Part shown: positions 1-64,000 of the stretch, piece after piece | Layout of the letters: the number at the start of each line of letters is the position of its first letter | Numbering within the stretch: the first letter of the stretch is position 1 | From: Dromaius novaehollandiae | Taxonomy: Eukaryota; Chordata; Aves; Casuariiformes; Dromaiidae | DNA length: 64,000 nucleotides | NCBI RefSeq assembly: GCF_036370855.1 | Contig: NC_088106.1 | Coordinates: forward strand, 35,912,501 to 35,976,500 | Reading direction: 5' to 3' | Notes under the pieces: model-generated | Seen by the model: the letters and a program-made list of their open reading frames with translations, nothing else | What the model was told of the DNA's origin: nothing | Database searches by the model: none | Translations under genes and position numbers: made by a program

Positions 1-2764
1 CCAGGGTCTCTTCTACTGGCATCCCGTTTGCTCTTACTGACCGCCTTCAAGAATGGATACACAACACGTTTTCCAGCCTCATCTTGCAAGGTTAAGCATC
101 GGGCTTAACCTGAGAAATTTTATGAGCCCTAGGCTATTCCCTAGCTCTCCCCATAAGCTCATTTTTAGTGCATATCAGCAAGATTCAATAGGGAAGCAAA
201 AAAGCATGGTACTGCCTCTTACTTATCGCAATGCCACTAGCTATTTGTTGCGGATTATGAGCTTTTCATGTATTCCCCATCTCCCTCTCAGTGCAATGGG
301 ATGCTCAGAGACATCTGTTGTCAGAATTGCTTTTCATCTGGGAATCTCCACTGTAGCGTTGGCAATGGAGAGAGGTCACCAAGCTGCTCTCACCACATGT
401 TCAGTTATGACCTGTGTCCTCAGGTGGGCCTTCCCCTTCTGTGACTACCCTCTTGCTTTTGCTGCATTGAAATAACTTCTGTACTAGTAGCCGGAGACCC
501 TTCTGCAAAGCTCATCCCAAGCTCTCTTTAAGGCCTCTTCTTTTCCTTATCCTGTCTGATCTTACAGACTTCCCTGCTCTCCTGACCTCTGACAAACTAT
601 CTAGGACTCCAAGGACAACTTTCCCCTTCTCTACACAGTACTCCTTGCTTTCATAGTAAACCATACAGGGGGGTTTACTGGGACCCTTAGTCTTTCACTC
701 TTGATTGTAAGAAACAGGCTGCTCATGCTCTTCATGCAGAATTTTAGCAGCCTGCAGGCTCCTGCGGCTTTTTCCTGGGCAGTCTTCTGTAGTATTTTAC
801 TAATTGCCTCTTCCTTATGTCGCTCCCTTTCTTGAAATGATCTGTGTACATCCTGGCTCTGGTTGGCTTGCACTCTGCTATTCTCATGTTAAGCCCAGCT
901 GCACTTCACCACCCCAGAGTGACTCTCTCCAGTACCTCCCAGACTAAATCCTGCACAAACTAAATCCAGACCAAGTCCACCACAGTGTCTTTTCTCACTG
1001 CTTCACAGACCACCTGGTGTAGGAAGCAGCCCTTTACAAGCAGGAGACACTTCAGGTCTGAAGGCATCGTCTCCTGACAGGGCCTCTGGCCTTCTAGCCA
1101 AGCATCACAAGACGTCAGTGCTGCCTCTGTGCCTCTTCCCATCTTCCCCTTTGTGTGAGGCAGCCCAGCTGGAACCTCAGCCAGCCCTTCCAGGCCTTTG
1201 GCAGGCTCTCCCCCTCCTCCTCAGCGCAGGAGGAAGGCCAGGGCACAAAAGCCTGGAGCCTGCCCTGTCTGATGGAAAAGGGCAGAGAGGCATGCCTGCC
1301 TCTGCTTCGCCCAGCACCTACCGCTGTGTCACTGTTGAGCCATGCACAAATACTCCCCTGTGTCTCTCCCCATGTAGGTGTCACTTCCGCCTTGGGGGCT
1401 TTGGACCAAGGGCAGGGCTGTTCTCTTCAGTCTTTCAAAGCACTTTGTGTTCATGTCAGCCATGGTTGTCAGCCCAGAGGCTTTGTGTCCCTTGGCCAGG
1501 GCAGTTGCAAGGAGTTCAGGATCTAATGACAAGGCTGCTTTTCCTGTAACTCCAAGAGCCCCTGCCCTAAGGACCCCCTACCAAATGCCTGCAGACCAGG
1601 TGATCATCTGAGGCTGCAGCCTCCCTCCAAACCCCCTCTCCCAGAACATCAGGTGATGTTTCATCCTCAGGAATTTAAACGCCCACAGGCATTTCCAACA
1701 ACTCCAGGGCCTCACCCAGGGACATCCCCCCCGCCAGGGCTGGAGGCTCCCAGGGGCCAAGACCAGCTCCCCAGCATCAGCAGCCCCTGACTGCTCCCAT
1801 CCCCTGGGGTCCAGTCGAGACTGCCCATGCCAGGCCAAGTCCTCCCTCACCTCCGCCACACACTCCCTGGGTGCGGCTCCCCAAGGCCAAGGGGAAAGTG
1901 GAACGGTTCATGGATAAATGAGCGGCCCAACCTCACCTCTCCCCCATTACCTCCATCACACCCTGCCCCGCCAGCCCCATCTCGTGGGCCTGCCTCCCCT
2001 CTCACCCACCCCGCAGGCCTCCCCCACGCCAGCACCAGACATACCTGCCCAAGCTGGCAGGCCCTGCTGCGCACCCGGCCTCTTCTCCCCAGGCCGACAC
2101 GGCGAAGGCCACAGGCGACCTCCTTCCCTCCTGTGCACATGGGCATCATGAGCAGCAACACACCAACGGCCACCGACCACGGGGAGAACCACTCTGGCAC
2201 AGAAACCCCACGGCCGGAGCCCTGAGTGCATCTGTGTTCCCATGGCGATAACGGCCACTCAGAATGGAAGCAGAAGGGGGCCAGGAGGGGGCTGGGGGAG
2301 ACGGCCCTGTAGCACTCGCCTCAGCACTGCCCACCACGGCTGCAGAGACCAAACCTGGGAGCAGCCAGCACTTGCTGCTTTGGACTGCATCCCCCACTTG
2401 TTGCCCAGCTGCTTTCCCAGTCATGGTTTCTTCTGGGTGCAGAGGTTTGGGCCCGCCACTTGCAGCAGGACAAGAGCGCCCCAGCACTGTGCTGATGCTC
2501 AGAGAGGAGGATGTTATGCTACGATGGGACCCATCGTTCTCTGTCCCCACCAAAGCCCTCAGGCTGAGACCCCATCTGGGCATGTGCTGACACTCCCAAA
2601 CCAGCCTGGATAACCGGTACTGCACACTGAACCCCAGAGGTTTAGGGGCACTGTGCAAGGGAGCTGGGCGTGTGGTGCTGCACATGCAGCACAGCCCCTC
2701 TGCGCTGCTCCCACTTTGCCTGCTGGGGAGCAGCGCTGAGTCCAAGCACAGATGTCACAAAACA
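1..2764. repeat. Left copy of a tandem segmental duplication
   Basis: This block matches 61237-64000 in direct orientation, at an offset of 61236 that drops to 61235 after a 1-bp indel near 1140. Differences are scattered single bases, such as a small cluster near 263-275, and amount to roughly 1%. The two copies lie at the extreme ends of the window, so the similarity probably continues beyond both edges. The right copy sits directly upstream (minus strand) of the 16-exon array, so this left copy is probably the corresponding upstream part of another array gene lying before base 1. A collapsed or misjoined assembly is the alternative. Confidence 0.95.
631..873 (-). CDS. Conserved short ORF, possible exon upstream of an exon array
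   Basis: An 80-codon minus-strand ORF is kept unchanged in both duplicates (here and at 61867-62109). It is preceded by an AG (aatagcag) that could act as an acceptor near 887. The predicted peptide is charged at the start (HRSFQERERHKEEA) and then mixed hydrophobic and basic, ending at a TAG. I do not recognise the family. It lies on the same strand as the exon array, between the promoter module and the array in the duplicated arrangement, so it may belong to that gene. Identity between two recent duplicates is weak evidence of function because they are about 99% identical overall. Confidence 0.3.
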   Translation of the reverse strand: MQANQSQDVHRSFQERERHKEEAISKILQKTAQEKAAGACRLLKFCMKSMSSLFLTIKSERLRVPVNPPVWFTMKARSTV

Positions 2765-3264
2765 AGACAGAGCCCCCAGCGCGGAGCCTGGGCCGAGCTG
2801 GCACCTCCTCTCAACCCTGGTCCTCAGGGTGTGCAGCAGCTCAGGGCTGAGCCCCAGGGTCCTGCAGGGGCTGGGGATCCCCCTGCCGTGGGCCAGGCCC
2901 AGGGTGGTGGAGCCAGCACGTGACCAGAGCTGGTCGGTGCCTCCTGGCTGGCAGACAGGGTCCCAGGGCCAGCGCAGCCATAGCCAAGGCCGAGCGAGCT
3001 CAGGAGCCCCACGCTGACTCTGGCTGGGCTGCGCAGGGAGGGACTGGGGTATGGCATGGCCCTGCACCACTGCTCCCAGCACCGGCGGCCCAGAGCTGGG
3101 CTCCCCTTGCTGCCCCGCACGGCCCCCAGGGCAGCCAGGAGCCCCGCAGCGCTCCTGCGGCAGAGCCCAGCCCCTGCGGGGCAGCGGCCGGGCCCCGGGG
3201 CCCTGCACTGCCCAGGCACATGATGCCAGGCTGCCCCGAGGCCCCACCATGCCCCGCCCTGCCG
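2765..3264. other. GC-rich region downstream of the minus-strand promoter
   Basis: Very GC-rich DNA with many CpG and CAG/CTG words. Long open frames exist on both strands, as expected by chance at this composition. If the promoter at 3265-3490 is real, the first exon of a minus-strand gene should lie here, but no start or splice site stands out well enough to call. Confidence 0.4.
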
Positions 3265-30974: not shown

Positions 30975-31640
30975 CTGCGGCCAGAGCCCCCGGGGTCCCC
31001 ACTCTGAGGAGAGCAGCTCGATCAGCTGCCAGAGTGTCAGGTCCCCAGGAGAGCATCCTGGAGATGGACAAGGAGCGGCAGGCAAGCGCCTGCTCCCAGC
31101 CCGCGGATGGCCTCCCAGGAGCGCGGGAGCGCAGGAGCGAGGTGAGTGATGGGGCTGGAGGCAGGGGCAGGCAGCAGGGATGGGACCTGCATGGAGAGAG
31201 CAAGGGTGTGGGGTGGGCGAGCTGGGGGTGGGACAGCCAGCCCTGAGGTACTCCAGTAGCAAAGGGTATTATTAATTCCTGGCCCCCAGGGCAGACTGGG
31301 GCACACGGATGCTCCAAGGCCACACGGCCGCAGTAACCTCCACCCAGGGCAGAGAGCAGCTCTGGGCTGAGCTCAGCCTGGCTGTGGCCAGCCTTGTTCT
31401 TGCCTTACAAACAGACCCGGAGTTTTCCACCCTTCAGTGGCCTCATGTGCAAACACAACTGCCTGCATCCTGCCCCTCTTTCTCCCCGCACCTGGGCCAC
31501 AGGGAGATGCTCGCAGCAATGCAGCGCAAACAGGTCGGGGCTTCATGCCACGGGGATGAGCAGCCTTCACTCCCCAGCCCAAGGAGATCACGGGCCTCTG
31601 GGAAGAGACAAAAGCTATATGGCTGAACAGAGACAGTGGT
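30975..31640 (+). pseudogene. Diverged duplicate of exons 1-2 of the downstream gene
   Basis: Bases 30985-31141 match the end of the exon at 32588-32884, including the cgag|gtgagtgatggggctggagg donor, at an offset of about 1744. The following intron also matches. The second exon (about 31500-31620) aligns with 33239-33367 around gcagcaatgcag, but its acceptor (cgcacctgggccacag) and frame are altered. This is an internal tandem duplication whose upstream unit has probably lost function, although the first donor could still be used. Confidence 0.6.
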
Positions 31641-32587
31641 AAAACTTTCTCGAGCCTCCTCCAACCTGCCGATAACCGGACTGGAGGTGCCTGGAGAGGC
31701 CAGGAGGTCCCCTGACCCCTTGCAGGCTGGCTGCCTGCTCTGCACAGGGAGTTCACACTGCAGATGTGTGACCCACCTGAAAATCATTTGCCCCCTCTTC
31801 AAACACACAAGGGGACCAGAGCTCGCAACCCTCAGAGCCCAGGTTTGGTTTCTCATCCCTCGGCAGGCAATGAGGCAGCGCAGCTCCCAGGGGCTGGGAG
31901 CACCTGCAGCTCCCACTGCCATCAGGACAATCCTGTGGCTCCGGGATCTCTGGCCTCCAGCTCAGCAATAGGGAGGCTGTTCCCCAGGCGCTGCGGCCAG
32001 CGTGAACTGGCCTTGAAGAGCACAGTATTCCCATAGCTGCTTCTCGCGTGGCTTCTCCAAGCATCTCCTAATGCTTCTCCGCTTCCCCAAATCCTCCTGC
32101 CCCTTTGCAGGCCCTTTCCCCCAAAGAAGGCTCCCCCAAAGCCCACAGTCAACCAGCCCCTACCCTCCCCCTGCTCCCACCACCCTGCACCCAGCATCAG
32201 GGCCCAGCCCCAGCCTCTGAAACTCAGCCGCATGCCCTTGGGATGGCCCCATCAGCCCCATGCACCTCCTCGCCTGCCCCATGCAAGCCAACAGGCAGCC
32301 CATCCAGGTTCCCATGGAGAAATCCTCCCTTGGCCCCGTGGGACCACAGCGAGGCCCAGCTGTCTGCCAGGGCATCCGAGAGAGCCTTCTGCGCCCATTG
32401 CTTGCCCTGTGGTAACGAGCCCTCTCCCTGCCTGGCTGTTCAGAGCGGGGTGGCAGACGCCTTGACGGGAGAGCACAGTCATCCAGGTTGGCATCATGGG
32501 TGGAAGACGTTTGCCAGTTGGAATGGATGGAGAGCAGGGAGGGCAGCACCAGGCTCACCTGGCCTCTCTTGTTTGCTTCTCTTGCAG

Positions 32588-32884
32588 AGGGACAGGGTGG
32601 AAGAAAGGAACAGGGAAATTGAGAGCATCATGAGAGCGTTTTTGAGGCAGCTTATAGGGATCTTATACCCACTTGCCTGCGAGTATGCAGAGGTCTCGAG
32701 AGCAAGTGCACAAGCTTCGGCACACTGGAGTCCCCACTCTGAGGAGAGCGACTCGATCAGCTGCCACAGTGTCAGGTCCCCAGGAGAGCATCCTGGAGAT
32801 GGACAAGGAGCGGCAGGCAAGCGCCTGCTCCCAGCCCGCGAACGGCCTCCCAGGCTCCCAGGCATGCAGGAGCGCAGGAGCGAG
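32588..32884 (+). CDS. Unrecognised five-exon gene, first detected exon
   Basis: The acceptor cttctcttgcag and donor GAG|gtgagt delimit 297 nt, exactly 99 codons, phase 0 at both ends. The peptide starts with a charged helix (RDRVEERNREIESIMRAF), followed by a short hydrophobic stretch (LIGILYPLACEY), then Ser-rich sequence (HSEESDSISCHS) and a basic end. The initiating exon lies further left and was not identified; the open frame continues upstream of the acceptor to 32105. The other exons, also phase 0, are at 33239, 33741, 35710 and 37007. Confidence 0.6.
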
Positions 32885-33238
32885 GTGAGTGATGGGGCTG
32901 GAGGCAGGGGCAGGCAGCAGGAATGGGACCCACACGGAGAGCACGAGCATGGTGGGGAAGGGGAGCTGGGGCAAGACAGGCAGGCATGAGCTCCTCCAGC
33001 GAGGGGGCATTCATTCCTGGCCCTGGGCATTTTCTCTCAGACAAAGCACACTGACCTGGATGCTCCAAGGCCCACACGTGCCCCGTGAGCTCTGCCCTGA
33101 GAGCAGCTCTGGGCCAAGCGCAGCCAGGCTGTGTGCAGCCATGAGCTTCCCTTGGACACGGGCTTGGGGTTTCCTGTGCTTCAGGAGCTGCTCCCACCAA
33201 TGCAACCACCCCCATCACGTGTCTCCTTCTCCCCACAG

Positions 33239-33367
33239 GTGGGCCAGCAGGAGCTGCACGCAGCAATGCAGCACAGCCGGACCCCGGCTCCGTCCCACCA
33301 AAGGGACAGGCTGCCTTCGCTGCCCGGCCCACAGAGCTCACGAGCCTCGGAACACGGCATCACAAAG
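33239..33367 (+). CDS. Unrecognised five-exon gene, second exon
   Basis: The acceptor ccttctccccacag and donor AAG|gtacag enclose 129 nt (43 codons), phase 0. The peptide, beginning VGQQELHAAMQHSRT, is hydrophilic with many His, Ser, Pro and Arg, and has no known domain. A diverged copy lies near 31500. Confidence 0.6.
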
Positions 33368-33740
33368 GTACAGAGCTGAGCAGAGAAGGTGGCAAAGCCT
33401 CTGCCTGACTCCCTGCAGCTGCTGAGCAGCAGACGGGAAGTGCTGGCCGAGACCAGGCGGTCTCCGCCCCCCGGCAGGCTGACTGGCTGCTCTGCATGGC
33501 AGCCTGCAAGCACATGCCTTGGGGCGTCCCAGGGAGCTGCCTTTGCCCATCTCTTGCCCCATGGTGAGGACCCTTCTCCCCACCCAGCCTTTGGGAGCAG
33601 GGCAGCAGCCGCCTGTGTGGGAGAGCGCTGCCATAATCGAGGGCGTCAGGGGCCGCAGGAAGTTTCCATGATGGAAGGATGCAGGGCAGCGGGGGGAACA
33701 ATGGCAGTAACTTGGCCTTTCTTGTGGGTTTGAGTTGCAG

Positions 33741-35543
33741 ATGGTGGAGGACACTAGCAGGGATGTCACAGTGCAAGCTCTGCATGCCTCCACCGGCCTT
33801 CTCAAGAAGGCTCCTTTGAGGCACGGGGAGACACTGCCTGGCAGGACTCATGCGGGAGCAGAGACACCACATCTGCCCGGCTTAGCACCGCTCCCAGCCA
33901 AGGCAGCTAGGCAGGCACAGGGAGGCCCGGAGGCCTCTGCATGTAAAAGAGCAGGAGCTACAAGTCAAACCAAGCTGCCTGCTCTGGAAACATCCGGCAG
34001 ATCTTCTCCCCAAGGCTGGGCCAATGCCATGGATGCGGAAGCTGTGAGCAGGAGAGTCCTGGAGAGAATGACCAAGGCATTAGAGAGGCTGGCTACAAAT
34101 TCCAGTGAAGCTGCTGCCAAGGAACACTTCCCGCTTGTTAGTGGGGCTGGGATGGCTCTGGGCTCAGGGAAGAGCCTGGAAGAGGAGGAACTAAAGCCAT
34201 CCCAGCTTTCCTTGCCTCCCCTTCAAAAACCCAAGCGGGAAATTTGTGCTCTTCCCCAGGCAATTCAAGAGCACGTCCGCTCCTTGCCTGAGTCCCGGCC
34301 TGGGTCTTCCCCATTAGTGCTGGGAAAAGCAAGGATGTTGCAGGACGACGGCAGCAGAACACCTCTTGCCCTGAAAAGCCAACAGCTCTCAGGAAGCTCC
34401 TCCTTTGGTGCAGGAGCACAGACCGTTCCTGAAAGGGAGCTGCGAGGCACACCAGCGTGCAAGGAGCGGCACGAGGCCTGGCCAAGCTGCCTGACAGTGC
34501 CAAGGCTGCCACAGTCCCCGTCAGCGGTGGGTTTTGCCAGCACTGGCCAAGAAATGCACCAGGAGCTAGTCAGCAAGCTGCCCCCGGCTCCCAGAGATGC
34601 CTGTGCCCAGGAGGTCAAGGCACAATGCTTGGACGCAGTGGTGCAGAGGCAGGACTTGGTGCTAAGCAAGTCCTCAGCATCCCAAGGGGCAGACCTGCAG
34701 CCTCCCCACCTGCAAGTGCCCCCAGCTGAGATGCCCCCGGAAGAAACAGCCTCTTCTCCCCTGCAGTGTGCGATGGCAGCCAAAGCTGTTTCAGACACGG
34801 CTGGACTCACCAGCCCTCCCTTCGCAGAGGTACCACCCAGCTCTGCAGAAGACATCGCTGCCAGGTGCCACAGTGAAATGGCCCCACCTGAGTCCCCATC
34901 GCCTTCCCTGCCGGAGCCTGCTGGCCTTGTTGAGAGCATCATTGCAGAAGCTGGCAGGCAATTGAGGGCTGAGAGCCAGGGGCCTGCCCCACATGGCCCC
35001 GCACCGCCTGCCGTGGCTCTGGAGGACGCGGGCCTGGGCCTCGAGGCACACACCATCGATGCAGCAACACCGGCAAGGCCAGACCAGCACCAGAGCACAG
35101 AGCGTGGCAAAAGCACAGCCCCCGCAGCTCAGCAAAGGCCTGATCCCCACGCTCATGGGGGCAAAAGGCAGGTCAGCGGGGCTGGTGCACCAGCTTCCCC
35201 AGGCAAGGGTGCGGGGACGGGGACACCACAACCAGCGCCGGCAGGGCAGCGCCCAAAACAGCAGCCTTTGGGCATCATCTGCCGCGTTGGAGGAAAGCCG
35301 CTGCGCATTCACCCGGACAACACCTCGCAGTACCTGGCAGTGCTGTCGATCAAAACAGAGACGCTGGAGGAGCTCAACAGCAGCTGCCTGGCCCGCACCG
35401 GGCAGAGCTTGGCCCAGCTGCGGGAAGCCTGTTTGCAGAGGAGGGAGCAGAGCCTGAAGGAGAGCGAGGGCGAGCAAGAGCAGGGCGAGGGGAAACATTT
35501 CTCCCTGACAGCCTCAGGATCCCTCAACGTCAAACCCAAGGAG
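33741..35543 (+). CDS. Unrecognised five-exon gene, large third exon
   Basis: The acceptor gtttgagttgcag and donor GAG|gtgagt enclose 1803 nt, 601 uninterrupted codons in phase 0, the longest such exon in the window. The first codon is ATG (MVEDTSRDVT), so translation could also start here. Most of the protein is Pro, Ala, Ser, Glu and Gln-rich and probably disordered. The last 130 residues look ordered (GIICRVGGKPLRIHPD, then LSIKTETLEELNSSCLA and a charged helix LAQLREACLQRREQS). Genes of this style (one huge disordered exon, short flanking exons, fast change) are common in the germ line, but I do not recognise the family. The intron before it resembles the intron before 32588, another sign of internal duplication. 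Confidence 0.7.
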
Positions 35544-35709
35544 GTGAGTGCAAGGGCTGGGCCGGGGCAGGTGCCAACCCTCCCCGTGCTGGGGCCAGCC
35601 GCTGCGCCGTGCCACGACAGCCTGCTTGTGCCAGTGCTGGCGGGGCCCCGCGAGGCCTTTCCTGGTGGGAAAAGGAGCTGCCTTCACAAATCTCCCCCTC
35701 TCCTTTCAG

Positions 35710-36432
35710 CTCCTCGCCAGAAACTCCTTCTACAACTTGTGGAAACCGGAGGTGACGCGAGTGGAGCTCCTCAAGGACGCAAGGTGCAAGTGGGAGGTGC
35801 TGGAGCGGCTGTATGCCCATGCCCCCAGGAGGGAGCGGGAGGTGGGAAGAGGCAAGAGAGTCCCGGGAGCGCTGCAGGAGGAGCAAGCGGACTGGCCCAG
35901 TGAGGAAGAGCACACTGATGAAGAGCTTCTGCAAGGGGAGGAGCTAGAGGGAAAGCCCTCCCTGTGCATGACCTGGGTCAGACCTAGCCTCAGGAGCCTC
36001 TTCACAGACACAGAGACGTGCCCCCAGAAGGTGCCCTGCTCTCCCAACGGCAAGGCCAGAGACGCTACCGGGGAGGCAACGGGCGACCTGCAGAGCACGC
36101 CTCTCGCCCCAGCAGTGCCCAGAGGAGCCGAGGCAGCGGCACCTGCTTTGGCCGATGGCTTTCAGGACGCGGGGGACAGCGCGTCTCTCGCCCCATCAGC
36201 ATTTCTGAGCGCAGGAACGAAGCCGGAGGAGGCCTCCCCCGCAGCCAGCATCCCTCCGGATGTGGGGGAAAATGCACCTCTGACTCCATCAGTTCCTGCA
36301 GAAGCTGTGCCACAGGCCTCTCCCTTGGCCGCAGGCACTTGGGCTGAGAGCAACAGCCTGCCTCTCCAACAGCCTTTGCCCAAGGAAACACCACCAGCGA
36401 CCTCTGCCTTGGCTGGAGGCCCTCCTCACCAG
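35710..36432 (+). CDS. Unrecognised five-exon gene, fourth exon
   Basis: The acceptor cccctctcctttcag and donor CAG|gtgagc enclose 723 nt, 241 codons, phase 0. It begins with an ordered-looking stretch (LLARNSFYNLWKPEVTRVEL, then KDARCKWEVLERLYAHAP), passes through an acidic segment (EEEHTDEELLQGEELEG) and ends in about 100 residues of Ala/Pro/Ser-rich sequence with loosely repeated units around Leu-Ala-Pro-Ser. Confidence 0.7.
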
Positions 36433-43561: not shown

Positions 43562-44755
43562 TCAAACATCCCATAGAGCTAAGTTTAATGCTTCTGGCCA
43601 TTTTAGGCTAGCATGTGTGCATATTCTTGTTCTTTTTTCTTTTAATGTTCTATTCATTCTTTCTACTTGTCCTGAAGACTGAGGGTGATAAGGGGCATGT
43701 AGGTTTCTTTTTATTCCTAATGATTTATGTAATTGAGTGATGATGCTTGCCGTAAAATGGGAGCCCCTGTCTGAATCAATGGCTTCTGGGACCCCACACC
43801 TGAGTATGATTTCTTTCAGTAAGGCTTTCACTGCTCCCCCTGCATCAGCCTTTCTTGTTGGGAAAGCTTCTACCCAGCCTGATAACTGATCTACTCTCAC
43901 TAACAAGTGTTTATACCCATTGGCAGATGGCATACCCGCATAATCTATTTGTAGCCTTTGGAAAGGGAAGTAGGCCCATGGTCGTCCCCCTAACTCTGAG
44001 CTTGGTTGGCTACTTAAAGTCTTCTGGCAGGTCAGGCAGCTATTCATTATTCTTTTAGCAGCCGCATAAATTCCTGGAGCAGGCCATACTTTCTGTACCT
44101 GCTTAGCTATTGCCTCGGCTCCCCCATGAGCTGTATTGTGAAACCACCTAGCTATAGTAATTAAATATTTTTTTGGTAGAATTGGTTTTCCTCCACTTGT
44201 CCATATTCCATCATCATTTTGTTTTGCTTCCCACTGTTCCCATTGTTTTTTCTTTTCCATGGAGCAGTCCTTTTCATACATGGTTTTGGGGTCTATTAAA
44301 TTTGGCCACTCACTTTGGTTCATCCTTGGAACTGCCCCCATACATTCTCTCAGAGGTTGTCGAGCTGCAGCCTTCGCAGCAGCGTCAGTTAATGTATTTC
44401 CTCTACTACTTTCTGTAGTGTCTTTAGTATGGGCTGGGCAGTGTATTACAGCAATTTCTTTGGGGCAGTTGAACTGCTTCCAGCAAATCACGTATTTCTT
44501 CTCCACTAGCTGATTTCTTTCCTGATGACAAAAAAATCCTTGTTCTTTCCATAACATCCCTGTTGCATCAAATACTCCAAATGCATATTTAGAATCAGTA
44601 CAGATATTTACCTGCAGCTTCTTACCAATTCTTGCTGCTTGGGTCAATGCTATTAATTCTGCTCCTTGAGCACTTACAGACGGAGACAAAGGATTGGCCT
44701 CAAGTACCTCAAAGATGTTAGTGACAGGATAACCTGAGTGGCGCCTTCCGTCCAA
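43562..44755 (-). pseudogene. Proviral pol: RNase H (rest) and integrase
   Basis: The frame carries the RNase H TDSKYAF block, then an integrase with an HHCC zinc-binding domain (NTAHGGAEAI, CLTCQ) and the catalytic core Asp-Asp-Glu (QIDYAG, DSDRGSHF, GQVERMN). It ends early at WDV-stop, losing the integrase C-terminal domain. In the proviral reading frame it is separated from the upstream RT frame only by an in-frame TGA directly after the RNase H FTDG. Together the features indicate a class I (gammaretrovirus-like) element. Confidence 0.9.
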
Positions 44756-44764
44756 ATAATAGGA

Positions 44765-45793
44765 TCATCCATCTGTAAACAGAACTAAGTCCGGGTTCTC
44801 CAAAGGTTCATCTTTAAGGTCCTCCCGGGGCTTGCTCGAGCCGACGATCACCTGCTCACAGGAATGATGCGGCTCTCCATCCTCCAGCAGAGGCAATAGC
44901 ATTGCTGGATTTAAGATATTGCATCTCTTTAAAGTCACATTATCTGCATGCAGTATTATCAGTGCATAGCGGTGAGCTCTCTGTGGGGATAGTGCTGGAG
45001 TTGCGTATTGTTTCATTAACAGTTCTACTTCATGTGGCACATACACAGTCAGTGAGTGACCCAAAACTTCAGGTCGTGTTTTTTCAAGAAGAGCTGCAGT
45101 AGCTGCTATTGCTCTGATGCATCCTGGAGTGCCTTTAGCTACCACGTCTAGCTGCGTGGAGTAATAGGCCACTGGTCTACGGTGAGGACCTAGTTTTGGG
45201 GTCAGTACCCCACTTGCTACTCCCTGTCGTTCATGGACAATTAATTCAAATGGTTTGCTATAATCTGGCAACCCTAGAGCAGGGGCTGAAACCAACACCT
45301 TTTTTACAGATGTAAAAGCTTTCTCCCTTTCTGGGCCCCAGGCCAAAGGCTCTATCTCCTCTTTTTTTGTTGCCTGCACTAAAGGCTTAGTAAGTTCTCC
45401 TAACCCAGGAATGCATGGTCGGCAAAATCCTACAGCTCCTAAAAATCCCCTAAGCTGTTTTTTTGTTACAGGACGAGGCATATCAAGAATTGTCTTTACT
45501 CGTTCCGGATAAACTAACCTGTGTCCTTCCTTTAAAATAAAACCCAAATATTTTACCTCTCGTCGACACAGCTGAAGCTTAGACAGAGATGCTTGATGCC
45601 CTTTTTCTGCAAGAGCATTACATAGAGAAATAGTGTCTTTTAAACATGTCTCATAATCTTTACCTGCTAATAACAAATCATCCACATAGTGTATTAACAC
45701 TGAATGTCCTGGAAGTTCGATATCTGAGGGATCATTTTTGAGTATACGCGAAAAAATAGTCGGAGACCCAGTAAATCCCTGCGGTAGTCTCAT
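44765..45793 (-). pseudogene. Proviral pol: reverse transcriptase
   Basis: Contains the LPQGF-type motif (MRLPQGFTGSP), the catalytic YVDD box (HYVDDLLLAG), thumb and connection sequence, and the start of RNase H up to FTDG, where a TGA interrupts. The beginning is missing: the frame shifts between 45794 and 45986, removing part of the fingers and the first catalytic Asp region from a continuous reading frame. Confidence 0.92.
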
Positions 45794-45986
45794 CCAAGTT
45801 AATTGTCGTCCCTTCCAAGTGAAAGCAAAGAGATCTTGGCTATCTTCAGCTATCGGTATACTAGAAAAAGGCTGCCGTTAGGTCAATCACGGTAAAATAA
45901 GTTGCCCAGTGAGGTATTTGTAATAACACGGTTGATGGGTCAGGAACTACTGGGTGTGGAGTAATTACATGTTGGTTTATAGCCCT

Positions 45987-46691
45987 TTAGTCTTGTACAA
46001 ACTGATACTCTGGATCACCATCAGAATCTTGCCTGTTCTTTTTAACTGGCAGAACTGGGGTGTTGTACAGGGATTCACAGACTCTAAGAATACCTAGTTT
46101 CAAATAATGATCAGTTTGTTTTTGGATACTCTTCTCTGCTTCCTTTGGGATAGGGTATTGTTTAACTGCGGGAGGCAATCCCCCCTTTGTTTTTATCGAG
46201 ACTGGACTAGCTGATTTCTGTAGTCCCACATCCATTCCTGAAGAGCTCCATAACTTTTTAGGAACTGATTCTAAACCTGTTAGAATCTGCAGATTAGTTG
46301 ACTCTGGTTCTGGTGTCTTAGCCAGAACACATGAACCCATAATTATTAATTTTATCCCTTCCGGCTGTAAACAGATCTGAGTATCCGAGGCTTGCAGGAG
46401 ATCTCTCCCTAAGAGGCAAGAGGGCGAGTCTGTGGAAATTATAAAACAGCCCCACACTCTTTTACCTCCAATAGTGGGCAATAAAGGCTTAGATAACATT
46501 TGTTCGCCTTTTCCCATTACTCCTCGCATCACTATTTTATCTGGTGACTTGCATCCTTTAGGCTCCAAATTTAAAAGGGAAAGGGTGGCTCCAGTATCCA
46601 CTAGAAAGGGAACTTCTAAACCTTCTGTATTTGCCATTACATGGCCCTCAAAATCCAAACCTATATCCCATAAATTTACCCCAATTTCCAC
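45987..46691 (-). pseudogene. Proviral protease and RT N-terminus
   Basis: An aspartic protease is marked by VPFLVDTGATLSLL and a later LLGRDLL; this is followed by the RT start (PVLPVKK). It is in the same frame as the upstream nucleocapsid ORF, separated by a TGA, which matches the gag-stop-pol arrangement of gammaretroviruses, where readthrough is used. A frameshift then breaks the link to the rest of RT. Confidence 0.9.
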
Positions 46692-46718
46692 AGTATTTTC
46701 TGAGTCTCCTATCTCCTG

Positions 46719-54604: not shown

Positions 54605-54755
54605 GCCAGCACAGACACAGCCTTCCTAAACGCAGCTCTCTCCTGCCTGCCACAGCCACTCACACAAAAAGCCTCCATGGCCTGGGCAGCTCTTCCACTT
54701 GGGGGAGACACCCAAGAGTTCCCGCTCCTACAGCACCTCCTTTATCCCGGCAGCA

Positions 54756-54806
54756 CTACGACCTCTCACTGCCCTTCAAATCCAACACTCCCAAAAAGAA
54801 CGACAG
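54756..54806 (-). CDS. Candidate last exon of the exon-array gene
   Basis: After exon copy 1 the usual intron diverges 29 bp in and runs instead to a strong acceptor, ttttcctgttgttgcag. In phase 0 the exon encodes LSFFLGVLDLKGSERS and a TAG. The intron would be only 62 nt, shorter than most vertebrate introns, so a longer intron to another exon is possible. Confidence 0.35.
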   Translation of the reverse strand: MSFFLGVLDLKGSERS

Positions 54807-54868
54807 CTGCAACAACAGGAAAAACACAATCCCCAGGGTTCCCCAAACTAACACCTGCCGCCACCTAC

Positions 54869-57800
54869 CTGGGAGCTGCTGCCTGAGCTCGACCAGTCCA
54901 TCGGCTGGGGTGACCTGGCCGATGCCAGCCCAGCTGTCTTCACCGCCTGCAAAGCAAAAGGAGGCATTTTGAGGCAAAGGCACACTGAGAGAACCACCAA
55001 GAGCCACTGCCTCTTCTCTCCCGGGTCCTGCCACATGCCAAGGACAGCAAACACAAGCCCAGGTGCCCCTGCAACAATGTCTCTTGTATTATGCCCCATT
55101 TTGGGCACAGCCAAATGCACGCAAGGCACACAATGGTGCCCCATTTTGTGCACAACCAAAGGCACACAAACATGCATGCAAAACAGGCTTCCAAGCTCTC
55201 ACTTCGAAGACCATCTCGCAATGGCACCTCTCTGCTCAGCGGCACACACCCTTGCCAAGCCACCCTCCCCACCTCTCCCCAAACTAACTCCTGCCGCCAC
55301 CTACCTGGGAGCTGCTGCCTGAGCTCGACCAGTCCATCGGCTGGGCTGACCTGGCCGATGCCAGCCCAGCTGTCTTCACCGCCTGCAAAGCAAAAGGAGG
55401 CATTTTGAGGCAAAGGCACACTGAGAGAACCACCAAGAGCCACTGCCTCTTCTCTCCCGGGTCCTGCCACATGCCAAGGACAGCAAACGCACTTCCTGGC
55501 CAACTCGCAACAAAGTCCCCTCTACTCTAGCCCAATCTGTGCCCAAGCAAAGGCACACAAGGCAAACATTCGTGTGCCCCATTTTGGGCACAACCAAAGG
55601 CACACAAGCATGGATGCACAACAGGCTTCCAAATTCACGCTTCCAAGCCCATCTCGCAATGGTGCCTCTCTGCTCAGCAGCACACACCCTTGCCAAGCCA
55701 CCCTCCCCACCTCTCCCCAAACTAACACCTGCCACCACCTACCTGGGAGCTGCTGCCTGAGCTCGACCAGTCCATGGGCTGGGCTGACCTGGCCGATGCC
55801 AGCCCAGCTGTCTTCACTGCCTGCAAAGCAAAAGGAGGCATTTAGACGGAGAGGCACACAGAAAGAACCACCAAGAGCCACTGCCTCTTCTCTCCCGGGT
55901 CCTGCCGCATGCCAAGGACAGCAAACACATTCCAAGGTCCCCCTGCATTATACCCCATTTTGTGCACAACCAAAGGCACACAAGCATGGATGCAAAACAG
56001 GCTTCCAAGCTCACGCTTCCAAGCCCATCTTGCAATGGTGCCTCTCTGCTCAGCGGCACACACCCTTGCCAAGCCACCCTCCCCACCTCTCCCCTAAATA
56101 ACTCCTGCCGCCACCTACCTGGGAGCTGCTGCCTGAGCTCGACCAGTCCATCGGCTGGGGTGACCTGGCTGATGCCAGCCCAGCTGTCTTCACCGCCTGC
56201 AAAGCAAAAGGAGGCATTTTTAGGCAAGGGCACACAGAAGAAACCACCAAGAGCCACTGCCTCTTCTCTGTCGGGTCCTGCCACATGCCAAGGACAGTAA
56301 ACAAATTCCCAGGTCCCCCCGCAACAATGTCTCTTGCATTATGCCCCATTTTGGGCACAACCAAAGGCAGACAAGGTACACATTTGTGCCCCACTGTGTG
56401 AACAACCAAAAGCACACATGCATGGATGCACAACAGGCTTCCAAGCTCACGCTTCCAAGCCCATCTTGCAATGGCGCCTCTCTGCTCAGCGGCACACACC
56501 CTTGCCAAGCCACCCTCCCCACCTCTCCCCAAACTAACTCCTGCCGCCACCTACCTGGGAGCTGCTGCCTGAGCTCGACCAGTCCATTGGCTGGGCTGAC
56601 CTGGCCGATGCCAGCCCAGCTGTCTTCACCGCCTGCAAAGCAAAAGGAGGCATTTTTAGGCAAGGGCACACAGAAAGAACCACCAAGAGCCACTGCCTCT
56701 TCTCTCCCGGGTCCTGCCACATGCCAAGGACAGCAAACACATGCCGAGGCGCCCCTGCAACAACGTCTCTTGTATTATGCCCCATTTTGGGCACAACCAA
56801 AGGCACACAAGCGTGGATGCAAAACAGGCTTCCAAATTCACGCTTCCAAGACCATCTTGCAGTGGTGCCTCTCTGCTCAGCGGCACACACCCTTGCCAAG
56901 CCACCCTCCCCACCTCTCCCCAAACTAACTCCTGCCGCCACCTACCTGGGAGCTGCTGCCTGAGCTCGACCAGTCCATCGGCTGGGGTGACCTGGCTGAT
57001 GCCTGCCCAGCTGTCTTCACCGCCTGAAAACCAAAGGGCAGCATTTTAAGGCAAGGGCACACAGAAAGAACCACCAAGAGCCACTGCTTCTTCTCTCCTG
57101 GGTCCTGCCACATGCCAAGGACAGTAAACAAATTCCCAGGTCCCCCTGCAACAACGTCTCTTGTATTATGCCCCATTTTGTGCACAGCCAAAGGAACACA
57201 AGGCGCACATTCGTGTGCCCCATTTTGTGCACCTCCAAAGGCACACATCCATGGATGTAAAACAGGCTTCCAAATACACGCTTCCAAGCCGATCTTGCAG
57301 TGGTGTCTCTCTGCTCAGCGGCACACACCCTTGCCAAGCCACCCTCCCCACCTCTCCCCAAACTAACTCCTGCCACCACCTACCTGGGAGCTGCTGCCTG
57401 AGCTCGACCAGTCCATGGGCTGGGCTGACCTGGCCGATGCCAGCCCAGCTGTCTTCACCGCCTGCAAAGCAAAAGGAGGCATTTTGAGGCTAAGGCCTGC
57501 GGAAAGAACCACCAAGAGCCACTGCCTCTTCTCTCCTGGGTCCTGCCACATGCCAAGGACAGCAAACACATGCCCACGTCCCCTCGCAACAACGTATCTT
57601 GCATTATGCCCCATTTTGGGCACAAACAAATGCACGCAAGGCACACATTGGTGCCCCATTTTGTGCACAACCAAAGGCACACAAGCATGCATGCAAAACA
57701 GGCTTCCAAGCTCCCACTTCCCAGCCCATCTTGCAATGGCACCTCTCTGCTCAGCAGCACACACGCTTGCCAAGCCACCCTCCCCACCTCTCCCCAAACT

Positions 57801-60800
57801 AACTCCTGCCGCCACCTACCTGGGAGCTGCTGCCTGAGCTCGACCAGTCCATCGGCTGGGGTGACCTGGCCGATGCCAGCCCAGCTGTCTTCACCGCCTG
57901 CAAAGCAAAAGGAGGCATTTTGAGGCTAAGGCCTGCGGAAAGAACCACCAAGAGCCACTGCCTCTTCTCTCCTGGGTCCTGCCACATGCCAAGGACAGCA
58001 AACACATGCCCAGGTCCCCCCGCAACAATGTCTCTTGTATTATGCCCCATTTTGGGCACAGCCAAAGGAACACAAGGCGCACATTCGTGTGCCCCATTTT
58101 GTGCACCTCCAAAGGCACACATGCATGGATGCAAAACAGGCTTCCAAGTTCACGCTTCCAAGCCCATCTCGCAATGGTGCCTCTCTGCTCAGCGGCACAC
58201 ACCCTTGCCAAGCCAGCCTCCCCACCTCTCCCCAAACTAACTCCTGCCGCCACCTACCTGGGAGCTGCTGCCTGAGCTCGACCAGTCCATTGGCTGGGCT
58301 GACCTGGCCGATGCCAGCCCAGCTGTCTTCACTGCCTGCAAAGCAAAAGGAGGCATTTAGACGGAGAGGCACACAGAAAGAACCACCAAGAGCCTCTGCC
58401 TCTTCTCTCCCGGGTCCTGCCGCATGCCAAGGACAGCAAACACATTCCAAGGTCCCCCTGCATTATACCCCATTTTGTGCACAACCAAAGGCACACAAGC
58501 ATGGATGCAAAACAGGCTTCCAAGCTCACACTTCCAAGCCCATCTTGCAATGGTGCCTCTCTGCTCAGCGGCACACACCCTTGCCAAGCCAGCCTCCCCA
58601 CCTCTCCCCTAAATAACTCCTGCCGCCACCTACCTGGGAGCTGCTGCCTGAGCTCGACCAGTCCATGGGCTGGGGTGAACTGGCCGATGCCAGCCCAGCT
58701 GTCTTCACCACCTGCAAAGCAAAAGGAGGCATTTTTAGGCAAGGGCACACAGAAGAAACCACCAAGAGCCACTGCCTCTTCTCTGTCGGGTCCTGCCACA
58801 TGACAAGGACAGCAAACAAATTCCCAGGTCCCCCCGCAATACATCTCTTGCATTATGCCCCATTTTGGGCACAACCAAAGGCAGACAAGGTACACATTTG
58901 TGCCCCACTGTGTGAACAACCAAAAGCACACATGCATGGATGCACAACAGGCTTCCAAGCTCACGCTTCCAAGCCCATCTTGCAATGGCGCCTCTCTGCT
59001 CAGCGGCACACACCCTTGCCAAGCCACCCTCCCCACCTCTCCCCAAACTAACACCTGCCGCCACCTACCTGGGAGCTGCTGCCTGAGCTCGACCAGTCCA
59101 TGGGCTGGGCTGACCTGGCCGATGCCAGCCCAGCTGTCTTCACCGCCTGCAAAGCAAAAGGAGGCATTTTTAGGCAAGGGCACACAGAAAGAACCACCAA
59201 GAGCCACTGCCTCTTCTCTCCCGGGTCCTGCCACATGCCAAGGACAGCAAACACATGCCGAGGCGCCCCTGCAACAACGTCTCTTGTATTATGCCCCATT
59301 TTGGGCACAACCAAAGGCACACAAGCGTGGATGCAAAACAGGCTTCCAAATTCACGCTTCCAAGACCATCTTGCAGTGGTGCCTCTCTGCTCAGCGGCAC
59401 ACACCCTTGCCAAGCCACCCTCCCCACCTCTCCCCAAACTAACTCCTGCCGCCACCTACCTGGGAGCTGCTGCCTGAGCTCGACCAGTCCATCGGCTGGG
59501 GTGACCTGGCTGATGCCATCCCAGCTGTCTTCAGTGCCTGAAAACCAAAGGGCAGCATTTTAAGGCAAGGGCACACAGAAAGAACCACCAAGAGCCACTG
59601 CTTCTTCTCTCCCGGGTCCTGCCACATGCCAAGGACAGTAAACAAATTCCCAGGTCCCCCTGCAACAACGTCTCTTGTATTATGCCCCATTTTGTGCACA
59701 ACCAAAGGCACACAAGCATGGATGCAAAACAGGCTTCCATGCTCACGCTTCCAAGCCCATCTCTCAGTGGCACCTAACTGGGAGCTGCTGCCTGAGCTCG
59801 ACCAGTCCATGGGCTGGGCTGACCTGGCTGATGCCAGCCCAGCTGTCTTCACCGCCTGCAAAGCAAAAGGAGGCATTCAGACGGAGAGGCACACTGAGAG
59901 AACCACCAAGAGCCACTGCCTCTTCTCTCCTGGGTCCTGCCACATGCCAAGGACAGCAAACGCACTTCCTGGCCAACTCGCAAGAAAGTCCCCTCTACTT
60001 TAGCCCAATCTTTGCCCAAGCAAAGGCACACAAAGCACACATTCCTGTGCCCCATTTAGTGCACAACCAAAGGCACACAAACATGGATGTAAAACAGGCT
60101 TCCAAATACACGCTTCCAAGCCGATCTTGCAATGGTGCCTCTCTGCTCAGCGGCACACACCCTTGCCAAGCCACCCTCCCCACCTCTCCCCAAACTAACT
60201 CCTGCCACCACCTACCTGGGAGCTGCTGCCTGAGCTCGACCAGTCCATGGGCTGGGCTGACCTGGCCGATGCCAGCCCAGCTGTCTTCACCGCCTGCAAA
60301 GCAAAAGGAGGCATTTTGAGGCTAAGGCCTGCGGAAAGAACCACCAAGAGCCACTGCCTCTTCTCTCCCGGGTCCTGCCACATGCCAAGGACAGCAAACA
60401 CATGCCCAGGTCCCCCCGCAACAACGTATCTTGCATTATGCCCCATTTTGGGCACAACCAAATGCACGCAAGGCACACATTGGTGCCCCATTTTGTGCAC
60501 AACCAAAGGCACACAAGCATGCATGCAAAACAGGCTTCCAAGCTCCCACTTCCCAGCCCATCTTGCAATGGCACCTCTCTGCTCAGCAGCACACACCCTT
60601 GCCAAGCCACCCTCCCCACCTCTCCCCAAACTAACACCTGCCGCCACCTACCTGGGAGCTGCTGCCTGAGCTCGACCAGTCCATTGGCTGGGCTGACCTG
60701 GCTGATGCCTGCCCAGCTGTCTTCACCACCTGAAAAGCAAAAGGAGGCATTTTGAGGGAGAGGCACACTGAGAGAACCACCAAGAGCCACTGCCTCTTCT

Positions 60801-61120
60801 CTCCTGGGTCCTGCCACATTACAAACCCATCAAACACATGTCCAGGTCCCCCTGCAACAACGTCTCTTGCATTATGCCCCATTTTGGGCACAATCAAAGG
60901 CACACAAGCATGGATGCAAAACAGGCTTCCAAGCTCACGCTTCCAAGACCATCTTGCAATGGCACCTCTCTGCTCAGCAGCACACACCCTTGCCAAGCCA
61001 CCCTCCCCACCTCTCCCCAAACTAACACCTGCCGCCACCTACCTGGGAGCTGCTGCCTGAGCTCGACCAGTCCATCGGCTGGGCTGACCTGGCCAATGCC
61101 AGCCTAGCTTTTTTCACCAC
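54869..61120 (-). CDS. Sixteen tandem 78-nt exons encoding a 26-residue repeat
   Basis: Exon copies, from left: 54869, 55305, 55743, 56119, 56555, 56946, 57384, 57820, 58258, 58634, 59069, 59460, 59778, 60216, 60652 and 61043, each 78 nt. Every copy follows an AG acceptor (mostly ttttgctttgcag) and fifteen precede gtaggtgg. Phase 0 is open in all sixteen and would give 16 x 26 residues: AVKTAGLASARS at the start and MDWSSSGSSSQ at the end, with no cysteine and a serine-rich second half. Phase 1 (GEDSWAGIGQ..) is open in fifteen but has a TAG in the copy at 61043. The last 33 nt of the exon are invariant in all copies; variation is confined to the first 45. Being symmetrical, any number of copies could be spliced in or skipped without a frame change. 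No homologous protein is known to me. The first exon and promoter should lie right of the window. Confidence 0.6.
59778..59855 (-). CDS. Array exon copy 13, donor lost
   Basis: The only copy whose donor is changed: CAG is followed by ttaggt, not gtaggt, and the adjoining intron lacks about 120 bp compared with its neighbours (unit 318 bp). The acceptor and reading frame are intact. This exon is probably skipped, or spliced at gtgcca 4 nt further on, which would break the frame. Confidence 0.7.
61043..61120 (-). CDS. Array exon copy 16, most diverged
   Basis: This first copy in transcription order has several changes of its own (VVKKARLALARS in phase 0). It carries a TAG in the phase-1 frame, the main sequence argument that phase 0 is the coding phase if the array is translated. 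Splice sites are intact. Edge copies of arrays usually diverge most because they take part least in exchange. Confidence 0.6.
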
Positions 61121-61236
61121 CTGCAATGCAAAAGGACACATTTTGAGGCTAAGGCACACAGAAAGAGTCACTGCCTCTTCTCTGTCAGGTCCTGCCACAC
61201 GCCAAGGACAGCAAACACATTCCCATGCCTGCCCCA

Positions 61237-64000
61237 CCAGGGTCTCTTCTACTGGCATCCCGTTTGCTCTTACTGACCGCCTACAAGAATGGATACACAA
61301 CACGTTTTCCAGCCTCATCTTGCAAGGTTAAGCATCGGGCTTAACCTGAGAAATTTTATGAGCCCTAGGCTATTCCCTAGCTCTCCCCATAAGCTCATTT
61401 TTAGTGCATATCAGCAAGATTCAATAGGGAAGCAGAAAAGCATGGTACTGCCTCTTACTTATCGCAATGCCACTAGCTATTTGTTGCGGATTATGAGATT
61501 TTCTTGTATTCCCCATCTCCCTCTCAGTGCAATGGGATGCTCAGAGACATCTGTTGTCAGAATTGCTTTTCATCTGGGAATCTCCACTGTAGCGTTGGCA
61601 ATGGAGAGAGGTCACCAAGCTGCTCTCACCACATGTTCAGTTATGACCTGTGTCCTCAGGTGGGCCTTCCCCTTCTGTGACTACCCTCTTGCTTTTGCTG
61701 CATTGAAATAACTTCTGTACTAGTAGCCGGAGACCCTTCTGCAAAGCTCATCCCAAGCTCTCTTTAAGGCCTCTTCTTTTCCTTATCCTGTCTGATCTTA
61801 CAGACTTCCCTGCTCTCCTGACCTCTGACAAACTATCTAGGACTCCAAGGACAACTTTCCCCTTCTCTACACAGTACTCCTTGCTTTCATAGTAAACCAT
61901 ACAGGGGGGTTTACTGGGACCCTTAGTCTTTCACTCTTGATTGTAAGAAACAGGCTGCTCATGCTCTTCATGCAGAATTTTAGCAGCCTGCAGGCTCCTG
62001 CGGCTTTTTCCTGGGCAGTCTTCTGTAGTATTTTACTAATTGCCTCTTCCTTATGTCGCTCCCTTTCTTGAAATGATCTGTGTACATCCTGGCTCTGGTT
62101 GGCTTGCACTCTGCTATTCTCATGTTAAGCCCAGCTGCACTTCACCACCCCAGAGTGACTCTCTCCAGTACCTCCCAGACTAAATCCTGCACAAACTAAA
62201 TCCAGACCAAGTCCACCACAGTGTCTTTTCTCACTGCTTCACAGACCACCTGGTGTAGGAAGCAGCCCTTTACAAGCAGGAGACACTTCAGGTCTGAAGG
62301 CATCGTCTCCTGACAGGGCCTCTGGCCTTCTAGCCAAGCATCACAAGACGTCAGTGCTGCCTCTGTGCCTCTTCCATCTTCCCCTTTGTGTGAGGCAGCC
62401 CAGCTGGAACCTCAGCCAGCCCTTCCAGGCCTTTGGCAGGCTCTCCCCCTCCTCCTCAGCGCAGGAGGAAGGCCAGGGCACAAAAGCCTGGAGCCTGCCC
62501 TGTCTGATGGAAAAGGGCAGAGAGGCATGCCTGCCTCTGCTTCGCCCAGTACCTACCGCTGTGTCACTGTTGAGCCATGCACAAATACTCCCCTGTGTCT
62601 CTCCCCATGTAGGTGTCACTTCCGCCTTGGGGGCTTTGGACCAAGGGCAGGGCTGTTCTCTTCAGTCTTTCAAAGCACTTTGTGTTCATGTCAGCCATGG
62701 TTGTCAGCCCAGAGGCTTTGTGTCCCTTGGCCAGGGCAGTTGCAAGGAGTTCAGGATCTAATGACAAGGCTGCTTTTCCTGTAACTCCAAGAGCCCCTGC
62801 CCTAAGGACCCTCTGCCAAATGCCTGCAGACCAGGTGATCATCTGAGGCTGCAGCCTCCCTCCAAACCCCCTCTCCCAGAACATCAGGTGATGTTTCATC
62901 CTCAGGAATTTAAATGCCCACAGGCATTTCCAACAACTCCAGGGCCTCACCCAGGGACATCCCCCCCGCCAGGGCTGGAGGCTCCCAGGGGCCAAGACCA
63001 GCTCCCCAGCATCAGCAGCCCCTGACTGCTCCCATCCCCTGGGGTCCAGTCGAGACTGCCCATGCCAGGCCAAGTCCTCCCTCACCTCCGCCACACACTC
63101 CCTGGGTGCGGCTCCCCAAGGCCAAGGGGAAAGTGGAACGGTTCATGGATAAATGAGCGGCCCAACCTCATCTCTCCCCCATTACCTCCATCACACCCTG
63201 CCCTGCCAGCCCCATCTCGTGGGCCTGCCTCCCCTCTCACCCACCCCGCAGGCCTCCCCCACGCCAACACCAGACATACCTGCCCAAGCTGGCAGGCCCT
63301 GCTGCGCACCCGGCCTCTTCTCCCCAGGCCGACACGGCGAAGGCCACAGGCGACCTCCTTCCCTCCTGTGCACATGGGCATCATGAGCAGCAACACACCA
63401 ACAGCCACCGACCACGGGGAGAACCACTCTGGCACAGAAACCCCACGGCCGGAGCCCTGAGTGCATCTGTGTTCCCATGGCGATAACGGCCACTCAGAAT
63501 GGAAGCAGAAGGGGGCCAGGAGGGGGCTGGGGGAGACGGCCCTGTAGCACTCGCCTCAGCACTGCCCACCACGGCTGCAGAGACCAAACCTGGGAGCAGC
63601 CAGCACTTGCTGCTTTGGACTGCGTCCCCCACTTGATGCCCAGCTGCTTTCCCAATCATGGTTTCTTCTGGGTGCAGAGGTTTGGGCCCGCCACTTGCAG
63701 CAGGACAAGAGCGCCCCAGCACTGTGCTGATGCTCAGAGAGGAGGATGTTATGCTACGATGCGACCCATCGTTCTCTGTCCCCACCAAAGCCCTCAGGCT
63801 GAGACCCCATCTGGGCATGTGCTGACACTCCCAAACCAGCCTGGATAACCGGTACTGCACACTGAACCCCAGAGGTTTAGGAGCACTGTGCAAGGGAGCT
63901 GGGCGTGTGGTGCTGCACATGCAGCACAGCCCCTCTGCGCCGCTCCCACTTTGCCTGCTGGGGAGCAGCGCTGAGTCCAAGCCCAGATGTCACAAAACAA
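61237..64000. repeat. Right copy of the tandem segmental duplication
   Basis: Matches 1-2764. It lies immediately upstream, on the minus strand, of exon copy 16. By analogy with the left copy, the promoter module should lie about 0.5-0.7 kb beyond the right end of the window. Confidence 0.95.
61867..62109 (-). CDS. Conserved short ORF upstream of the array (right copy)
   Basis: Identical in protein to the ORF at 631-873. Here it is 747 bp upstream of exon copy 16 on the same strand, so it could be an upstream exon of the array gene. No donor that would join it in phase to the array is evident after its TAG. Confidence 0.3.
   Translation of the reverse strand: MQANQSQDVHRSFQERERHKEEAISKILQKTAQEKAAGACRLLKFCMKSMSSLFLTIKSERLRVPVNPPVWFTMKARSTV

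Follow-up and report, generated by a model that had tools for sequence, protein, structure and literature searches.

The locus examined here raises the question of whether a tandem array in the genome of the emu (Dromaius novaehollandiae) is a run of small, separately spliced exons and, if so, whether these exons encode a protein. The window, a stretch of 64,000 nucleotides (nt) at positions 35912501-35976500 of contig C9 and ~ 0.2 Mb from the end of this 36.19-Mb contig, contains 16 repeat units at 54869-61120 on the minus strand, with one predicted 78-nt exon in each. From sequence comparison, we consider it likely that these are indeed exons. The explanation that we favour on balance is that they belong, as internal exons, to a multicopy emu gene that is subtelomeric and lies on the minus strand; they would be spliced in phase 0 into serine-rich modules of 26 residues.

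Along the minus strand, the exon of unit 1 (61043..61120) reads VVKKARLALARSAQPMDWSSSGSSSQ, to be compared with the VVKKAR-type exon that is the usual first exon in other arrays. It is followed by the exons of units 2 (60652..60729), 3 (60216..60293), 4 (59778..59855), 5 (59460..59537), 6 (59069..59146), 7 (58634..58711), 8 (58258..58335), 9 (57820..57897), 10 (57384..57461), 11 (56946..57023), 12 (56555..56632), 13 (56119..56196), 14 (55743..55820), 15 (55305..55382), and 16, the last (54869..54946), all on the same strand. The introns between them measure 240-360 nt and the unit spacing is 318-438 nt. A pyrimidine-rich tract and AG stand in front of each exon and GTAGGT behind 15 of the 16, the donor of unit 4 being TT. 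An earlier note, made from the letters of the window, had proposed this array as a potential modular repeat protein, and its counts proved exact, from the coordinates and the 78-nt length throughout to the acceptor AG in 16/16 exons, the donor GT in 15/16, and a phase 0 that is open in 16/16. Phase 2 is open in 15/16 exons and phase 1 is closed in all 16. The phase-0 module is a serine-rich sequence of 26 residues, (V/A)VKTAGxASARS(A/P)QPMDWSSSGSSSQ.

Related arrays from the emu genome (1.47 Gb in 271 contigs, with C-numbers for its contigs and L-numbers for fetched stretches) served as a test set. Twenty further arrays (L009-L028), a subset of those existing, were fetched and, together with the window, gave 21 arrays, in which exons were located by a profile search with the exon alone, leaving the flanks as an independent test. 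This search returned 306 exons with 106 distinct sequences, 8-19 per array in the 20 arrays uncut by a contig end and 7 in L014, which is cut by one. The acceptor AG was present in 305/306 exons as the profile placed them and in 306/306 after correction of the exception, an exon in L022 that has a 3-nt deletion inside it and an intact CAG in front. The donor GT was present in 305/306, the only dead donor being that of unit 4 at 59778 in the window, and the donor hexamers were GTAGGT (278), GTAGGC (16), GTGGGT (11), and TTAGGT (1). The earlier note had named outgroup arrays with lost splice sites as evidence that would speak against its proposal; among the paralogous arrays, on which this was examined, none with lost sites was found. 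Exon length was 78 nt in 304 cases, 75 nt in one and 81 nt in one, and therefore a multiple of three in all 306, while the 285 unit spacings left remainders of 0, 1, and 2 modulo 3 in 127, 143, and 15 cases, which bears out the symmetry that had been claimed for these exons. Phase 0 was open in 306 exons, phase 2 in 277, and phase 1 in 8. A 73-nt deletion lies beside the donor in 29 of 261 distinct units, and the exons reading GTAGGTGCC (35/306) appear to be the units with this deletion, in which the donor is kept. At the level of sequence, the tandem unit carries a complete, frame-neutral exon with both of its splice sites.

Whether this retention exceeds what copying alone would produce was assessed from diversity among those 261 distinct units, out of 285 internal units in the 21 arrays. 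The four splice-site nucleotides deviated in one unit in total, and such retention was rarely matched by four random intron columns (P = 0.007) or by two random intron dinucleotides (P = 0.011). When near-identical units were collapsed to 177, 124, 95 (a collapse at 3% intron distance), or 59 representatives, there were each time no AG deviations and one GT deviation. Within the aligned unit, 321 intervals of 45-200 nt run from an AG to a GT (301 sense, 20 antisense). Both sites are retained in at least 99% of units by 15 sense intervals and 1 antisense interval, and the proposed exon is the only 1 of the 321 that, at the same threshold, also preserves its length modulo 3 and an open reading frame. 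From 30 nt before the end of the exon to intron position 6, diversity stayed below 0.02; over the next six bases it was 0.136. The 36-nt block that ends at donor +6 had a mean deviation of 0.004, compared with 0.020 for the quietest of 225 intron windows of 36 nt. The acceptor tract was conserved more weakly, yet was quieter than the intron (P = 0.016). These observations support the view that the exon architecture is under selection, and this selection is likely to be for splicing.

Several observations on conservation weigh against this interpretation. Nucleotides 1-48 of the exon were not clearly quieter than the intron (0.065 versus 0.085, P = 0.09), 28 of 296 intron dinucleotides were kept as well as the acceptor and 30 as well as the donor, 26 of 277 intron 9-mers were kept as well as CAGGTAGGT (207/261 units), and some short stretches of intron, such as +126 to +137, were as quiet as the conserved block. 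The statement that the conserved part of each unit coincides with the exon is upheld for the last 30 nt, the donor hexamer and, more weakly, the acceptor tract, and is not clearly borne out for exon nucleotides 1-48.

A block this quiet could also be a DNA-level element of a non-coding satellite, protein-binding or linked to recombination, with an accidental likeness to an exon. The core is nearly invariant at the nucleotide level, and the 36-nt block (GACTGG...CCCAGGTAGGT) was found at 651 places in the genome with at most three mismatches, many of them near contig ends, while a reversed control gave none. However, the core ends at donor +6, the acceptor tract is kept as well, the donor changes, with one exception, yield other usable donors, and a single interval of 321 passes the tests for an exon. 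Constraint tied to splice sites, which a non-coding satellite would lack, was found, and we regard the satellite as very improbable.

A second alternative is that the array is a relic, once coding and now untranscribed, whose units stay alike through gene conversion and recent duplication and whose splice sites persist from its youth. The array lies in a tandem duplicon, described below, and in the one duplicon pair that was compared, single-copy flanks diverge by ~ 1%. The region is also CpG-depleted, and a neighbouring RING finger sequence looks dead in 33/33 listed copies. Against this, the introns of the internal units differ by a mean of 13% in their columns, which is old relative to the duplicon pair and indicates that the units had time for divergence, and yet there is 1 splice-site deviation among the distinct units. 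Conservation also drops right past donor +6, at a resolution of 6 nt, for which homogenisation alone is insufficient. The relic is, in our judgement, improbable, if less so than the satellite.

Given exons, the question becomes whether they are translated, for which the frame-related evidence is favourable. Two indel events were found inside the exon among the 261 distinct units, both of 3 nt, where the rate outside would predict about 7 per 78 columns by our own arithmetic; the 330 other columns had 29 events, of which 21 were not multiples of three. No variant creates a stop in phase 0 (P = 0.043 for the whole exon). The CpG in the conserved block survives in 255/261 units; CA stands in its place in 6 and TG in 0. 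Read in phase 0, CA leaves the residue unchanged, while TG would turn Ser into Leu. Retention is 20-62% in the twelve other columns where CG occurs in at least 20% of units, although some of these CpGs may be derived rather than decayed. Residues K3, S12, M16, S19-21, and S23 are invariant across all 304 exons that are 78 nt long.

Other measures weigh against a protein. When only nt 1-45 were considered, the depletion of stops in phase 0 did not reach significance (P 0.12). The ratio of nonsynonymous to synonymous variants in phase 0 was 0.93 over 53 distinct variants, which is near neutral (0.67 when weighted by copies), and the synonymous excess was not significant (P 0.31 and 0.12; 52 variants, with the misplaced L022 exon removed). 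Third positions in the conserved block were as quiet as other positions, indicating that constraint there acts at the nucleotide level. Taken together, the near-neutral ratio and the quiet third positions mean that a splicing constraint is better supported than an amino-acid constraint. No intronless copy of an exon junction was found in the genome, which also counts on this side, though such an absence neither supports nor refutes splicing. The proposal of a modular repeat protein is supported in its exon architecture, in its symmetry, and in a variable copy number, which was seen between paralogous arrays. Constraint on the amino acids, in contrast, is weak on the whole, and it is on the nucleotides that strong constraint acts.

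These measures bear on the main rival, a spliced non-coding RNA, that is, a repetitive long RNA in which the ~ 30-nt sequence at the 3′ end of the exon is either functional or a mere splicing signal. It accords with a nucleotide-level constraint confined to the donor, the 30 exon nucleotides in front of it, and the acceptor tract, and with the searches reported below, in which no named protein was matched and no upstream coding exon was recognised. A non-coding exon, however, would have no reason to keep its length modulo 3 in 306/306 cases, to accept indels of 3 nt only, or to leave a single frame free of stops. There is in addition no Rfam family in the array, and a hairpin in the conserved block was no more stable than in shuffled sequences (z -0.28). 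We consider the non-coding RNA unlikely, though the weightiest of the alternatives, and once the exons are granted, we rate the phase-0 protein at somewhat better than even. Two other ways of coding were rejected. Translation in phase 2 (GEDSWAGIGQVSPADGLVELRQQLP), which is more protein-like by eye, meets a stop in 29/306 exons, and stop-creating variants in this phase are not depleted (P = 0.99). Unspliced coding across units was rejected because the unit length falls in all classes modulo 3.

Similarity searches placed the repeat in no known family, in agreement with what had been said of the 26-residue sequence before. In Pfam, there was no match above cut-off in phase 0 or phase 2; the best candidates, NucS_N in phase 0 (18.7 bits, cut-off 23.9) and WH3_Lhr in phase 2 (the best of 7, 23.9 bits, cut-off 27), were regarded as chance. 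No solved structure in the PDB matched the phase-0 repeat. The protein database searched includes ratite RefSeq proteins, and ~ 8,000 best candidates were scored per search. Its results count against a translated repeat, as no protein of 229-728 residues contained it in phase 0 or 2 at E ≤ 0.1 and, among proteins of 72-227 residues, phase 0 had one match at E ≤ 10. This match, P0011 (78 residues, from an ENA contig of 16,210 bp), is an unnamed read-through open reading frame (ORF), in which the first unit of such an array is read through into the flanks, and it is nearly identical to the window ORF at 61025-61327. Short-read assemblies probably collapse loci of this type, which could explain the lack of a named protein. 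In Rfam, the window had 0 matches at the gathering score, a search of 54700-61300 at E ≤ 1 likewise gave 0, and no conserved small nucleolar RNA (snoRNA), as a snoRNA host gene would carry in each unit, was found. Collections of phages, viral contigs, and prokaryote contigs yielded nothing. Among the papers listed in literature searches (at most 10 per search), judged by titles and abstract openings, none dealt with this array or its repeat.

If the explanation that we favour is correct, the array would be transcribed from the minus strand, each 78-nt exon would be joined in phase 0 to the next to place 8-19 modules in a transcript, and the spliced modules would be translated in this phase. 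Copy number would be set by unequal exchange between units and between duplicons, and the whole block would have spread by being copied in tandem and between chromosomes, for the most part close to contig ends. The unit with the dead donor (59778) would be skipped, giving a product with 26 residues fewer and the frame kept. As every exon is frame-neutral, length can change in 26-residue steps without loss of frame, and the arrays are probably parts of a gene whose product changes length in this way. A bolder claim, that this is a new ratite gene family whose repeat protein is built from many near-identical, individually spliced 26-residue exons, with units exchanged among tens of subtelomeric copies, is tentative, and we would sooner expect it to fail than to hold. 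A terminal exon may lie at 54756..54806 on the minus strand (positions counted by eye), where phase 0 reads LSFFLGVLDLKGSERS followed by TAG. This candidate is weak, as the intron in front of it would measure only 62 nt; the 3′ flank that holds it is replaced by other sequence in arrays L013 and L019.

The surroundings of the array show how it is distributed. Positions 1..2765 of the window, the left end of a 61.2-kb duplicon, are 99.3% identical to 61237..64000, where the next duplicon copy starts, indicating that the window covers one period of a tandem duplicon; the array of the neighbouring copy sits just left of the window. The duplicon block was found on many contigs, mostly close to contig ends. 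Unit arrays were located on C5, C6, C8, C9, C33, C86, C182, and C215, and C10 and C48 also carry arrays, judged by their 5′ flank. The 5′-flank search gave 23 full-length copies, a lower bound, and the unit, block, and flank searches combined gave at least 34 arrays in the genome by our own count. On C5 and C9, the whole repeated block measures about 41-61 kb from array to array. Tabulated arrays on C5, C6, C8, and C9 lie 98-331 kb from the contig end and the array read on C33 nearly 0.4 Mb from it, while C86, C182, and C215 are short contigs whose arrays have no placement relative to ends. We use the term subtelomeric because of these distances to contig ends. Arrays on different contigs have runs of unit types in common (e.g., L-J-E-H, E-P-M-B-T, and I-K-G), which together with the common first unit type VVKKAR suggests exchange between chromosomes.

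A host gene was sought among the ORFs of the window. Between 2.7 and 55.2 kb, 276 stop-free ORFs of at least 78 residues were listed, and 256 of these were scanned against Pfam. The 20 outside this main scan were 5 of low complexity (3.3-3.9 kb), 13 in or around a retroviral stretch, and 2 overlapping the array, and 3 of the 20 were scanned separately. Further scans took in 10 large ORFs and 78 of the 213 minus-strand ORFs of 38-77 residues in the stretches considered. Matches were to FSIP2, retroviral pol, a CR1-like reverse transcriptase, a RING finger, Yae1_N (0.004), and, weakly, the bacterial repeat domain CofB (1.6e-4). No upstream coding exon was recognised in the Pfam-scanned ORFs of the window, a further point against a coding gene. 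Divergence between paralogues had no power to reveal 5′ exons because the flanks differ by ~ 1%.

The FSIP2-like gene (Pfam PF15783) lies at 30968-36261 on the plus strand, opposite to the array. Within these coordinates, 83% of the ORF at 33711-35900 (+) aligns at 100% identity to the uncharacterised emu protein LOC135329235, which has relatives in ostrich and rhea; nothing was found in the literature on emu and LOC135329235. A germ-line role for the array is suggested by one thing, this neighbouring sperm gene. The array as a part of the FSIP2 family was rejected, with the repeat lacking a Pfam match above cut-off and the FSIP2-like gene on the opposite strand. Beside the six C5 arrays, no FSIP2-like match was among the best candidates scored. 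Copies of the gene in the genome include 12 matches at 95-100% that extend over the full 730 residues, one of them with a TAG. A set at 84-94% lies deeper inside C5, C6, C8, C9, and C10 (0.5-2 Mb from the contig end where determined), with one on C182 that is ~ 30 kb short of the far end. C91, C49, C209, and C216 carry a large set at about 54-66%. Such an amplification of a relative of a sperm-sheath protein in a ratite is worth a study of its own. Older arrays were sought by the inward FSIP2-like copies in two 10-kb stretches taken at the matching offset (L031 and L032), and these had no similarity to the window at E 1e-5.

The RING finger relic, at 8240-8311 on the minus strand, was found in the Pfam ORF scan and resembles TOPORS. 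It shares its strand with the next array, which begins some 8 kb downstream of it. It counts against the explanation that we favour, as each of the 33 listed subtelomeric copies has one in-frame TGA, so that part of the duplicon looks dead. With 150 of 367 candidates scored, which makes cluster counts lower bounds, all other listed RING matches fall in C9:30.45-32.37 Mb, a large tandem cluster of RING genes with open frames of mostly 320-409 residues and periods of about 4.7, 6.2, and 7.3 kb. In two units of this cluster (L033 and L034), the exon profile matched nothing below E 0.24. The RING gene was rejected as host, its copies near the arrays looking dead and the array exon being absent from these two units. 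From this evidence, neither the FSIP2-like nor the RING gene is shown to be the host. Three ORFs at 43565-46718 on the minus strand are remains of an endogenous retroviral pol (protease, reverse transcriptase, RNase H, and integrase), and the ORF at 24780-25466 (+) looks like the reverse transcriptase of a CR1 long interspersed element; the Pfam family RVT_1 was found in 2 ORFs of one 145-ORF batch.

If the array is transcribed, it would be an unusually dense vertebrate case of a variable-number tandem repeat (VNTR) that carries exons, with ~ 651 near-identical exons over many contigs, mostly near ends. It would offer a direct measure of whole-exon gain and loss through unequal exchange, a view of how the spliceosome copes with 8-19 consecutive exons that are nearly identical, and a view of a new repeat protein arising in subtelomeres. 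Were the new-family reading true, protein length and composition would turn over fast in frame-preserving steps.

Known systems share parts of this arrangement. Collagen genes have many short, symmetrical exons of equal length coding repeated Gly-X-Y, and these are old and diverged; the emu array has the same kind of short symmetrical exon with a repeated motif, whereas its units are much alike and its sequence type is unplaced. The SNORD115/116 host-gene arrays consist of tandem units with small spliced exons, an organisation like that of the emu units, in which there is no snoRNA or Rfam match. We would place the emu array nearest to the exon-carrying coding VNTRs such as LPA KIV-2 (PMC12776774), of which it would be an unusual, dispersed variant. 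In these VNTRs, each unit holds exons and introns. LPA KIV-2 encodes a folded kringle of a known expressed protein at one locus, whereas the emu array has one 78-nt exon per 0.3-0.57-kb unit, a low-complexity module, at least 34 arrays, and no detectable homology, and is known from DNA alone. Among the single-exon serine/threonine-rich VNTR proteins, MUC1 has a repeat of 60 bp or 20 residues (PMC12776774), and a short, serine-rich module in variable copy number is common to both, with the difference that the MUC1 repeats lie within one exon while each emu module makes up an exon by itself, flanked by splice sites of its own. Tandem exon duplications of the Dscam type (PMC9013439) also consist of homologous exons duplicated in tandem, of which one exon of the group is chosen. 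Being near-identical and frame-neutral, the emu exons are instead suited to joint inclusion, unlike a choice of the Dscam type.

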